From contig JAJYRD010000027.1 in assembly GCA_021794275.1 (NCBI GenBank), forward strand, positions 23,575 to 87,574: a stretch of DNA of 64,000 bases, read 5' to 3'. Position 1 is the stretch's first letter, and each line of letters starts with the position of its first letter. Shown here piece by piece: positions 7,530-43,909 of this stretch. The DNA is from Pseudomonadota bacterium (lineage in GTDB: Bacteria > Pseudomonadota > Gammaproteobacteria > Acidiferrobacterales > Acidiferrobacteraceae). The notes below the pieces were generated by a model. That model had not been told where the DNA came from. It saw nothing but the letters and a program-made list of their open reading frames with translations, and did no database searches. The translations under genes were made by a program, and so were the position numbers.

Positions 7530-8588
7530 TCAGACGCCGCGCGATGCGCGCGGCGCGCCTCCCGAAAGCGCGAACAAGACGCGCAAAAGCGCATCGTGAC
7601 TGGCCGACACGCGGCTCACCGCCACTGTCGCCTTGACGCTACGCCGCGTGATCTTCACATCCTGGCCGCTACGGAAATCCCGCCTCTTGTCGATCTTGCG
7701 CAAGGTCAAAACCGCCATCCCAAGGGCCCAGAGGCAAAAGTTCCTAAGACCCGCCTCCGCGCGCGGGAGCAATAGCACATAATCAAGAGCCCGGCGCGCG
7801 TGCGCGCGCGCCACGTCGATGAGTTCGCCGAGCCCTTCGCCGAAGCGCGGATCGCCCGGGCCCTGTTCCAAATCCGCAAGCGCGAAACCGTGGCGGGCAA
7901 ACACGTCACGCGGCAGCCAGCAGGCCCCGCGCCGCCTATCCTCCCAGATATCCTTTAGGATGTTCGTCATCTGAAGAGCCTGCCCAAACGAGACCGCAAG
8001 CACCATAAGGCGATCCTCATGGCGCCTTATCTGCGGCGAGTACTCGCAGAAGAGCCTTGTGAGCATCTCCCCCACGACGCCCGCCACGTAATAGCAGTAG
8101 CGATCCATGTCGGCCAGGGTCGGCAGACCTGCGGGGTCTTTGCGTTCCTGGAATTCCGCCATACCATCGGCCATGATCGCCACACAGGTCTCGAGCGCTT
8201 GGCGCTGACCTATTGTGAAACCGTCCCCGATCGCGATCACGCGCTCGGTCTTGCGCACCAGCAAGCGCTCGGCTTTCGGCACCGTAGGGGCCAAAACGGC
8301 GTCCAGATCGCGGGCGAACTCGGCGGCCTCGGCGCGCCGCGCCACGACTTCCGCGAAGAAAGTGCAGAAGTGGCGCTTTTGCACACTGCTCAAACCTGGG
8401 TCGTCTTCGATAGTATCGACGATGCGGCAGAGCAGATAACCATTGCCGACCACCTCCCGCAACCCCGGCGGAAGCTCGGGGATTGTCAAGGCGAAGGTGC
8501 GCGATACGTCCCGCAACATGGCGGCCTGGAACCGCTCATCGTCACGGCCGTCTCTGTTCATCACTGGGTCTTGGACCGATACGGACAT
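7530..8588 (-). CDS. squalene synthase (farnesyl-diphosphate farnesyltransferase, eukaryotic/Methylococcus-like type)
   Basis: aspartate-rich motifs RIVDTIEDD and NILKDIWEDRRRGACWLP; SRTFALTIPELPPGLR N-terminus. Confidence 0.88.
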   Translation of the reverse strand: MSVSVQDPVMNRDGRDDERFQAAMLRDVSRTFALTIPELPPGLREVVGNGYLLCRIVDTIEDDPGLSSVQKRHFCTFFAEVVARRAEAAEFARDLDAVLAPTVPKAERLLVRKTERVIAIGDGFTIGQRQALETCVAIMADGMAEFQERKDPAGLPTLADMDRYCYYVAGVVGEMLTRLFCEYSPQIRRHEDRLMVLAVSFGQALQMTNILKDIWEDRRRGACWLPRDVFARHGFALADLEQGPGDPRFGEGLGELIDVARAHARRALDYVLLLPRAEAGLRNFCLWALGMAVLTLRKIDKRRDFRSGQDVKITRRSVKATVAVSRVSASHDALLRVLFALSGGAPRASRGV

Positions 8589-38148: not shown

Positions 38149-38460
38149 TCTTGGACACTAGATCAGGTGGATATCTGCCCTTACAGGTACGCAACAAGGA
38201 GCAGAAATCCTATGAGCAAGACCGGTCGTAATCACGCCCCGCAATTCAAGGCCAAGGTGGCCCTCAAGGCCCTGGCTGGGGAAAAGACCATCCACGAGAT
38301 CGCAGCCAAACACCAAGTCCATCCCAACCAGGTGACCCAGTAGCGTAGGCAGCTCATCGACCAGGCGGTAAGCCTCTTTGGCAAGGCCGCCCTGGGGGTC
38401 GATCCCGCGGGGGACCGGGAGGCGCTGTTGGCTAAGATCGGACAGCTGACAGTCACAGGC
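38149..38460 (+). pseudogene. truncated IS3-family transposase orfA with in-frame TAG
   Basis: MSKTGRNHAPQFKAKVALKALAGEKTIHEIAAKHQVHPNQVTQ* then RRQLIDQAVSLFGKAALGVDPAGDREALLAKIGQLT; W codon replaced by TAG at 38341; orfB absent. Confidence 0.8.
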
Positions 38461-39545: not shown

Positions 39546-39591
39546 TATGGTGCCGGTGAGACGAATCGAACGCCCGACCTACTGATTACGA
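39546..39591 (-). repeat. displaced tRNA-Thr 3' half (attachment-site copy, element left end)
   Basis: 46 bp identical to 43832-43877: tatggtgccggtgagacgaatcgaacgcccgacctactgattacga. Confidence 0.93.
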
Positions 39592-39714: not shown

Positions 39715-39744
39715 TCCTACACCCGTCCTACGTGGGTCCTACAC
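39715..39744 (+). repeat. TCCTACAC/TCCTACGT direct repeats at exact 11-bp spacing (putative integrase arm-type sites, left)
   Basis: motif starts at 39715, 39726, 39737. Confidence 0.6.
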
Positions 39745-39756
39745 GGAGGAACGCCT

Positions 39757-40955
39757 ATGAAGATCACCAAGCGGACAGTAGACGCCCTGATACCCCCGGA
39801 GAAGGGCTACGCGCTCCACTGGGACGATGAGATCAAAGGCTTTGGGGTCCGCATCACGGAGAGTGGTGCGTGCTCCTTCGTGCTGGAGAAGAGCATCAGC
39901 GGCAAGCATCGGCGCATGACGCTCGGCCGGTATGGCGATGTCACCGTGGAATAAGCCCGCACGGACGCCAAGGTGAAGGCCGGACTCATCGCATCGGGGG
40001 GCGATCCGGTAGCGGACAAGCGCCGTGCCCGCGCTGCCGAGGTGAAGCTTGGGGAGGCCCTGGCCGATTACTTTACGTCGCGCAAGAATCTCAGCCCCAA
40101 GACCGTGCATGACATGCGGGCGACTCTTGAGTGGGGCTGCCCGATCTGGCTGACCCTGCCCACGGCCCGGATCACGCGCACCATGGTCGAGCGCCGCCAT
40201 AGGGAGTTAGGCGAGAAGGGACACGGGGGGCCGCGAATAAGTGGGGGCGCTATCTGCGGGCACTCCTGAACTTTGCGGCCAGTAAGTACACCGATGCCGA
40301 GGGGCAACCCATTCTCACGGATAACCCCGTCAAGGTGCTATCGAGCACGCGGGCTTGGTACCGCGTGGAGCGCCGCCAAAGCGTGATCCAGCCGCACCAA
40401 CTGGCCGCATGGTGGGGGGCCGTGCAGGGTCTACGAAATACCACTCACCGCGACTACTTCATAACCCTGCTACTCACTGGCCTACGCAAAGAAGAAGCCC
40501 GCACGCTGCAATGGGCGGACGTGGATTTTCAGGCTCGGACGCTCACCGTCCATGGCACCAAGAACCACTCAAGCCACACCCTGCCCATGGGTCCATATCT
40601 CGCAAGCCTACTCAATGCCCGCGAGCGCCTGGGGCCTTCGGTATTCACGTCCACGCAAGGCCAGATCGGCAACCTGCGCTACAGCCTGGAGGGGATCGCC
40701 AAGGCATCAGGCGTCAAGTTCATGATCCATGACATGAGACGCACCTTTGCGACTCTCGCGGAGTCTCTGGACGTACCGAGCTACGCCCTAAAACGCCTGA
40801 TGAACCACAAGACCCAAGGGGACGTGACCGGGGGCTATCTCGTAATCACCACGGAACGGCTGCGGGCACCCATGGAGAAGATCGAGGACTTCGTATTGAA
40901 GGCGGCCAAGATACGGGAAAGCGCCGAGATCGTGGCCCTGGACCGGGCTTTGTGA
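39757..40955 (+). pseudogene. tyrosine recombinase/integrase (DUF4102 N-terminus), disrupted
   Basis: MKITKRTVDALIPPEKGYALHWDDEIKGFGVRITESGACSFVLEK ... MTLGRYGDVTVE*ARTDAK; C-terminal GLRKEEARTLQWADVD, HDMRRTFATLAESL, LMNHKTQGDVTGGYL; in-frame TAA at 39952 and frameshift at G-run 40225-40230. Confidence 0.9.
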
Positions 40956-41018: not shown

Positions 41019-41297
41019 ATGATCCAGAGCTTCCGGCATAAGGGTCTCAAGCTGTTCTATGAGACGGGCAGTAAGGCCGGGATAGTCGCCGACCATGCCA
41101 AACGGCTGCGCGTGCTTCTCGCCCGCCTGGACGCTGCAAGCAAGCCCGAGGACATGAATCTGCCGGGAGCGCGCCTACACCCATTGAGCGGCGAGTGGCG
41201 CGGTTACTGGGCGGTCAACGTGTCGGGCAACTGGCGGTTGATCTTTCGGTTCGAGGGGGCGGAAGCCCATGACGTGGATTACCGCGATTATCATTGA
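41019..41297 (+). CDS. higB: HigB-like RelE-superfamily toxin
   Basis: [22 protein letters not shown]... [40 protein letters not shown]. Confidence 0.9.
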
Positions 41298-41308
41298 AGG
41301 AGCTTGTT

Positions 41309-41581
41309 ATGATGCATAATCCTCCCCATCCTGGCGAAGTCATACGTGAGCTCTGCTTGGAACCCTTGGGTTTGTCAGTTACGGCGGCTGCCGAGGCGCT
41401 GGGCGTGACGCGCAAGGCACTCTCCGAGATCCTGAACGGGCATACCGGGATCGCCCCGACCATGGCCCTGCGGCTTTCTCTGGCATTTGGTGGCAGCGCC
41501 GAAAGCTGGCTCATGCAGCAGGCGCAATACGACCTTTGGCGGGTAGGCAAGAATCCGCCCAAGGTTCGACGTATCGCATAA
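41309..41581 (+). CDS. higA: HigA-like XRE-family antitoxin
   Basis: [73 protein letters not shown]. Confidence 0.92.
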
Positions 41582-42377: not shown

Positions 42378-42488
42378 CCCTCGCGGCACTGTCAGATTTC
42401 GGGCACTTTTTGCCAAAAGTGGCCCCGTGTTACGACACCCGCCTTCCGGCATGCTCACCCCTGACTTCAAACAAACAGGGGTATCGAA

Positions 42489-42728
42489 ATGTTACAGCAA
42501 GCACTATCTGCCACATTATCCGCCATTGAACCCGACGCGCTTTACACCCAACTTGAGTTAGCCCCGGTCCTGCGTAAGTCGATTGCCTGGTTCGAACGGA
42601 GCCGCTGGGCGGGCACTGGCCCTGCGTATGTAAAGGTCGGTCGCCAGCCTCTCTATCGCGGCTCCGATGTTTTGGCGTGGCTAGATTCGCGCACTCGCGT
42701 ATCGACCTCGGATCAGGGGGCCGCATGA
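42489..42728 (+). CDS. AlpA/excisionase-type helix-turn-helix DNA-binding protein
   Basis: YTQLELAPVLRKSIAWFERSRWAGTGPAYVKVGRQPLYRGSDVLAWLDSRT. Confidence 0.75.
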   Translation: MLQQALSATLSAIEPDALYTQLELAPVLRKSIAWFERSRWAGTGPAYVKVGRQPLYRGSDVLAWLDSRTRVSTSDQGAA

Positions 42729-42926: not shown

Positions 42927-43166
42927 TTAACGAATGTTAACTTTTGTGTACGTCCCAGCCCGTTTCACGGCAGCCGGCGATACGCCGTGTGCCGTGGCGA
43001 GACGGTCGGCGGTATCTGGCAAGCAAGGATCAAGTTGAGCTTTGCTTGATCCACCGATAGCACCCGCTTCGGCCTTTGTTTTCTTCGCCCGGTTATACCG
43101 TCTGCCAAGCAAGAGCTTGAAGGCGTCGGGGGTGAGATTGCAGCGCCCCAACTGATTGGCATCCAT
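42927..43166 (-). pseudogene. C-terminal fragment of plasmid/phage ParB-like-type protein
   Basis: DANQLGRCNLTPDAFKLLLGRRYNRAKKTKAEAGAIGGSSKAQ...TADRLATAHGVSPAAVKRAGTY; no intact N-terminus. Confidence 0.55.
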
Positions 43167-43512
43167 CCAGTCTAGCCGCCAACTGTTGCCAACGGCTGGA
43201 CTGGGTTTTGGTGACGCCGAGATCGGATAGGGTTGGGGGTGGATTAGCAGAAACCGGTAGCACCGTGCTACCGGTTTTCTCGGTGGGTCTTCCCCCCTCA
43301 GCCTTCACCGCCGCCGCCAGTAACTCCCCGGCCCGTCGTTCGGCGCGAACCTTAATCTCCGTGGCCCAAGCGAGCAATCCCGTGGAGCGGCCTTTTCGTA
43401 TCGTATCAACCGTATCGTAGCGTAGCGTATCAATCGTATCGTATCGGACGAATCCCAGCGGTAGCGGTATGGTCGGCGTCTCTGGCCGCACCCTGGCCAA
43501 GGTGGAGCGCAT
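43093..43512 (-). pseudogene. N-terminal fragment of a phage/plasmid-type protein, frame-shifted into the downstream fragment
   Basis: EIKVRAERRAGELLAAAVKAEGGRPTEKTGSTVLPVSANPPPTLSDLGVTKTQSSRWQQLAA then out of frame with 42927..43166. Confidence 0.5.
43397..43447. repeat. GTATC-rich imperfect tandem array
   Basis: cgtatcgtatcaaccgtatcgtagcgtagcgtatcaatcgtatcgtatcgg. Confidence 0.7.
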
Positions 43513-43537
43513 CGAGCGCGAGGGGGTGCCGGAGGTA

Positions 43538-43668
43538 TTTCAGATAGGTTTCGGACAGGTTTCTGACAGGGCGCCAGAATCCATAAGCGTAATCAAATCA
43601 ATGGTGTAGCGCTAACAACTCTCACGATTTCCGACAGGGTGTCGGCATGATTTCCGATAGGGTATCGG
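43538..43668. repeat. five iteron-like TTTCNGAYAGG repeats, last two extended into palindromes
   Basis: starts at 43538, 43549, 43560 (contiguous 11-mers), 43628, 43651; CCGACA-GGG-TGTCGG and CCGATA-GGG-TATCGG. Confidence 0.75.
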
Positions 43669-43761
43669 ATATTTTTATGAGCGGTGGGGGCAGGGCGAAG
43701 GCCGAGCACAGCGGTACCGGCACAGGCTGGCCGATCCGTGGGCAAATATCCCCGAAATCGC

Positions 43762-43787
43762 TCCTACGTCCTACACTGGTCCTACAC
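43762..43787 (+). repeat. TCCTACGT/TCCTACAC repeats (putative integrase arm-type sites, right)
   Basis: motif starts at 43762, 43769, 43780. Confidence 0.6.
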
Positions 43788-43833
43788 TGAAAAACTGGCT
43801 CTTCGGTGAATCGCTGTAAGTCATTGATTTATA

Positions 43834-43909
<76 letters not shown>

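Follow-up and report, generated by a model that had tools for sequence, protein, structure and literature searches.

The DNA analyzed here, referred to as the window, is a single stretch of 64 kb, and it contains a 4.3-kb integrative element flanked by an exact 44-bp repeat of the 3' end of a tRNA-Thr gene. A short repeat array sits within this element, whose other features are as follows:

39548–39591: attL, an exact 44-bp copy of the 3' part of tRNA-Thr
39715–39747, plus strand: probable integrase arm-type sites of the left end, TCCTACAC/TCCTACGT in three copies at 11-bp spacing
39757–40955, plus strand: integrase pseudogene with an arm-binding domain (Arm-DNA-bind_3) and a catalytic domain, interrupted by a TAA at about 39952 and by a frameshift
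42489–42728, plus strand: intact gene for an AlpA-like small HTH protein
42956–43536: decayed divergent HTH gene pair
43762–43790, plus strand: probable integrase arm-type sites of the right end, TCCTACGT/TCCTACAC in three copies
43834–43877: attR, the same 44 bp inside an intact tRNA-Thr(CGT) gene (43834–43909, minus strand)

The order runs from the left three TCCTAC arm sites through the broken integrase, a HigB/HTH pair, a protein of unknown function and the AlpA-like gene, and continues with the decayed divergent HTH genes, the array (43538–43668), the right three TCCTAC sites and attR. The HigB-like toxin and HTH antitoxin genes (41019–41581) look intact, and this pair could be the reason why the otherwise broken element persists. 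The AlpA-like protein matches its families weakly (HTH_17 below the cut-off, phrog_66 excisionase at E = 4e-4), and its relatives in the family are 75–83% identical. Upstream of its gene lies an intergenic stretch (42387–42430) that reads TGTCAGATTTCGGGCACTTTTTGCC(G)AAAAGTGGCCCCGTG, includes an inverted repeat and is near-identical in two related loci, L035 and L037; it is probably an operator or a structured leader. Just left of the element, a truncated ORF (38211–38343), which we take to resemble the start of an IS3-type transposase OrfA, ends at an in-frame stop.

The array itself is composed of five exact copies of the 11-bp word TTTCNGAYAGG, all on the same strand, spanning 43538–43661 and starting at 43538, 43549, 43560, 43628 and 43651. 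Copies 1–3 are in tandem at 11-bp spacing, while copies 4 and 5 lie 23 bp apart, and each of the latter extends into a perfect 6-3-6 palindrome, with one compensating change between the two. The parts are:

43538–43570, plus strand: three tandem 11-bp direct repeats, TTTCAGATAGG / TTTCGGACAGG / TTTCTGACAGG
43563–43577: imperfect palindrome at copy 3, CTGACA-GGG-CGCCAG, with 4 of 6 inner pairs, or 6 of 9 with the flanks
43571–43627: A+T-rich spacer separating both repeat sets
43628–43645, plus strand: copy 4, TTTCCGACAGG, extending into the perfect palindrome CCGACA-GGG-TGTCGG (43631–43645)
43651–43668, plus strand: copy 5, TTTCCGATAGG, 23 bp from copy 4, extending into the perfect palindrome CCGATA-GGG-TATCGG (43654–43668)

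Re-reading of the sequence and a motif scan thus confirmed, at their positions, all five 11-mers and both palindromes described in the first-pass annotation. The spacer has 46% G+C, compared to 64% for the window, which places it among the lowest 0.8% of windows of 57 bp. Both the helix-phased direct repeats of a single word and the adjoining A+T-rich stretch are origin-type features. In the element, TTTCNGAYAGG is found at the right end only, while the TCCTACAC word occurs at both ends and recurs in L046, at the right end of an element that sits at tRNA-Phe; this recurrence supports TCCTACAC as the integrase arm-site word. TTTCNGAYAGG was therefore rejected as the arm-type site, and arm sites of a second integrase were likewise discarded, as no further attachment-core copies were detected inside the element.

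We then evaluated how unusual the array is. The five copies are the only exact matches to TTTCNGAYAGG in the window, where nine matches with at most one mismatch were counted against 4.3 expected. When clusters of any 11-mer were sought (at most two mismatches, same strand, within 131 bp), the largest in 40 dinucleotide-preserving shuffles of the window held four copies, one fewer than the real array, and a similar pair of 6-3-6 palindromes within 150 bp was found in none of 40 dinucleotide shuffles. The array is thus real and statistically unusual. Moreover, differences among the copies are confined to 2 of the 11 columns (chance about 1–5%), with all four bases seen in column 5 and C or T in column 8. 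Within the palindrome, copies 4 and 5 differ by a single compensating exchange, from C-G to T-A; when two transitions are placed between duplicates, the palindrome is retained in 6 of 153 placements (4%). This covariation is one event, and as evidence for selected symmetry it is suggestive, not strong. Copy 3 also forms a partial palindrome, with 6 of 9 pairs matching once the flanks are counted (chance about 0.7%), in which the variable column 5 is still paired, as T-A instead of the C-G of copies 4 and 5, meaning that both variable positions keep pairing across the three palindromic copies. The selection for inverted symmetry suggested earlier therefore draws on one compensating pair and on copy 3.

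The palindromes could also act as RNA, either as a plus-strand terminator (a hairpin followed by ATATTTTTA) or as a small structured RNA of the minus strand, although we consider this very unlikely. The minus strand of 43615–43685 folds into two hairpins better than shuffled sequences do (z of -3.3), but such folding is expected of any perfect palindromes, and the plus strand reaches a z of only -1.0. Similarly, a terminator-like site is present at 43653–43669, but such matches are not commoner than in shuffles; tRNA was the only Rfam family found, and the three tandem copies would be left unexplained.

Searches for the array outside the window returned the source genome only, both when 57 genomes of the order were scanned with the two-copy pattern and when the tandem pattern, at most one mismatch allowed, was run against 399 genomes of the phylum. 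With at most two mismatches, 16 other genomes among 369 of the class contained one scattered match each, compared to 11 for a reversed-pattern control; the class and phylum samples amount to about 770 samplings in total, partly overlapping. In IMG/VR, the exact tandem pattern gave no match, and the palindrome pattern gave 16 loci, which is not above a rough chance estimate. No DNA similarity of the array region to plasmids and phages exceeded chance. The rest of the 2.68-Mb source genome contains nine matches, all single and scattered, and the repeats are not a dispersed chromosomal family. Copies of the CGATAGGGTATCGG type in sister genomes were set aside as single sites without tandem repeats.

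Integrase and AlpA searches identified relatives of the element in the same genus and family. Two of them, L035 and L137, display a fuller plan, with an AlpA-like protein, an AAA_25 primase/helicase-type protein and small genes, and near the right end of L139 a nuclease, a DUF5681 protein and an HTH gene pair show how the missing middle was ordered. The L137 island also has a terminase small subunit (7601–8071) adjoining tRNA-Met, which suggests that the island family is phage-satellite-like. Between them, the relatives carry the satellite-like set of integrase, AlpA-like, replication and packaging genes, of which the copy in the window has only the broken integrase and the AlpA-like gene; from this copy, all that once separated the end of alpA (about 42781) from the HTH pair (about 42956) appears to be missing. 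A similar right-end remnant of an island occurs in the same genome beside the tmRNA gene (L047, 846–1100), with TGGGACA repeats near its attachment end. Homology to L047 ends at 43536, one base short of the array, and the approximately 225 bp from the array onward match nothing else compared, relatives included. In addition, the same tRNA-Thr locus of a sister genome (L053, 5338–8506, and L142) is occupied by a different element with the same flanking core repeat; by this comparison, the tRNA-Thr locus is a shared integration hot spot.

The array was absent from every related locus compared, including L137, the only relative that combines a related AlpA-like protein (75% identical) with a right end. 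Loci L037 and L035, whose AlpA-like proteins are 77–80% identical, have zero copies in the DNA covered; two adjacent near-matches in L035 (3821–3846) are located inside a gene and were attributed to chance. The first-pass annotation had proposed a comparison of homologous elements, and took a lack of conserved repeats there as speaking against a functional array; with no related element carrying the repeats, this comparison went largely against it.

One explanation for such a distribution is a neutral remnant, in which slippage would have generated the three 11-mers and local duplication the 23-bp pair, in decaying DNA and with no protein recognizing them. The element is indeed broken and deleted, the array is confined to one of the genomes sampled, and it begins one base past the end of the L047 homology, as at a rearrangement junction. 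However, changes restricted to 2 of 11 columns and pairing retained at both variable positions in the three palindromic copies speak against it, and we regard this explanation as rather unlikely.

Another possibility, which we hold to be doubtful, is that the repeats, phased at 11 bp in the right attachment region, are bound by the AlpA-like protein or by a repressor since lost, which would control excision or transcription. Unlike the integrase and replication genes, the AlpA-like gene is intact, and the array is located approximately 95–225 bp inward of the right-end arm sites. A parallel is offered by RdfS of a Mesorhizobium element, a filament-forming factor that occupies the attachment region with about one subunit for every 10 bp (PMC11963761). 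Arrays of the Xis/AlpA/RdfS type and the one described here share a phasing of about one helical turn and a place within the right end of an element that is integrated at a tRNA gene and has an AlpA-like gene. However, RdfS has no consensus word (PMC11963761), whereas the array has a strict one; the array is situated inside of the arm sites and not between arms and core; and it is missing in relatives with similar AlpA proteins, with L137 as the sole test at a right end and L037 and L035 pointing in the same direction. Furthermore, motif scores in the conserved region upstream of alpA are ordinary (ranks 218 and 344 in the 64 kb), and a link of that region to the array was rejected on this ground. 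The AlpA/Xis option raised earlier hence retains its position and its 11-bp phasing, but the ordinary motif at alpA, the existence of separate TCCTACAC arm sites and the relatives without the word all weigh against it.

Our preferred reading, which we put forward tentatively, is that the array is an orphaned origin/operator remnant, namely a binding array left behind in a deleted, tRNA-integrated satellite-like island. It is based on the direct and inverted repeats of one half-site arranged around an A+T-rich spacer, which is the layout of an iteron origin. In its favor, clustering and paired palindromes exceed what shuffles produce, variation is limited to 2 of 11 columns, and the 11-bp spacing is kept on one strand. 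In this model, the 11-bp word TTTCNGAYAGG would be the half-site for one protein: on the three tandem copies, one helical turn apart, monomers would line up along the same face of the DNA, and dimers would occupy the copies that extend to CCGAYA-GGG-TRTCGG. The binder would be an oligomeric DNA-binding protein, possibly an initiator, and the array would presumably no longer work. A comparable arrangement is known from pPS10, where RepA binds the iterons as a monomer and an inverted-repeat operator as a dimer (PMC4857107). Like iteron origins with an autoregulatory operator of the pPS10 kind, the array combines direct and inverted repeats of a shared half-site beside A+T-rich DNA; it differs from them in its 11-bp units, in having no initiator gene, and in that relatives have another candidate origin. 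Usual plasmid iterons are longer than an 11-bp half-site.

As the fuller relatives encode a primase/helicase-type replication protein, the island family probably replicates or did so in the past. Nevertheless, no initiator gene was detected among the ORFs of the element, no Rep3_N protein in the source genome and no HTH_36 protein in 18 genomes of the family. Moreover, intact relatives lack the array and carry different repeats, CACAAGRTGCCCA, in two direct and two inverted copies 19 bp apart (L035, 2936–3010; L139, 10462–10532). These lie within the AAA_25 primase/helicase-type gene, in its 3' part, and are a better candidate origin for the island family. The plasmid-type origin advanced earlier is thus favored by the repeat sets around an A+T-rich spacer, and disfavored by the missing initiator gene and by the relatives' other candidate array. 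A partition site (parS or ParR-type repeats), also advanced then, was discarded, as partition-gene families are absent among the ORFs of the element that were tested. Reading the repeats as a protein-binding array in a mobile element remains fair. It is improbable, though conceivable, that an undescribed initiator or regulator uses the array as its origin and operator, with the 11-bp half-site serving as a monomer site in tandem and as a dimer site when mirrored, in satellite-like islands of this bacterial family that have yet to be sampled intact.

A further parallel was sought in viral sequences. Scanning IMG/VR for two copies of TTTCNGAYAGG within 30 bp yielded 19 loci, including four independent arrays inside phage replication-initiation genes (the L144 family, L146, L161 and L162), and in the L144 family and L146 the spacing is 23 bp, as it is between copies 4 and 5. 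These in-gene iterons share the 11-bp word in pairs, but they lie within initiator genes, whereas the array in the window is in no recognizable gene. A scrambled-motif control gave 20 loci, of which two fell in genes for primosomal proteins and one in a rolling-circle initiator. As the scrambled motif also falls in replication genes, the resemblance is not specific, and short clustered phage repeats often mark replication genes whatever their sequence. Therefore, what was at first a strong case for a specific parallel was weakened by the control, and remains a lead.

Overall, what is orphaned in this decayed satellite-like island is probably a binding array, of a kind already known. If it is a working origin or operator, it would provide a short, strict binding word with which to track the module that replicates or controls satellite-like islands in this little-studied bacterial group. 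As it stands, the array is mainly a caution: in a broken element, and where no relative shares the array, even clean-looking symmetry cannot by itself assign function. Finally, a second local repeat array is present between the decayed HTH genes (43394–43446), consisting of TATCGTATC and variants, which read RYDTIDTLRYDTVDTIR on the minus strand.
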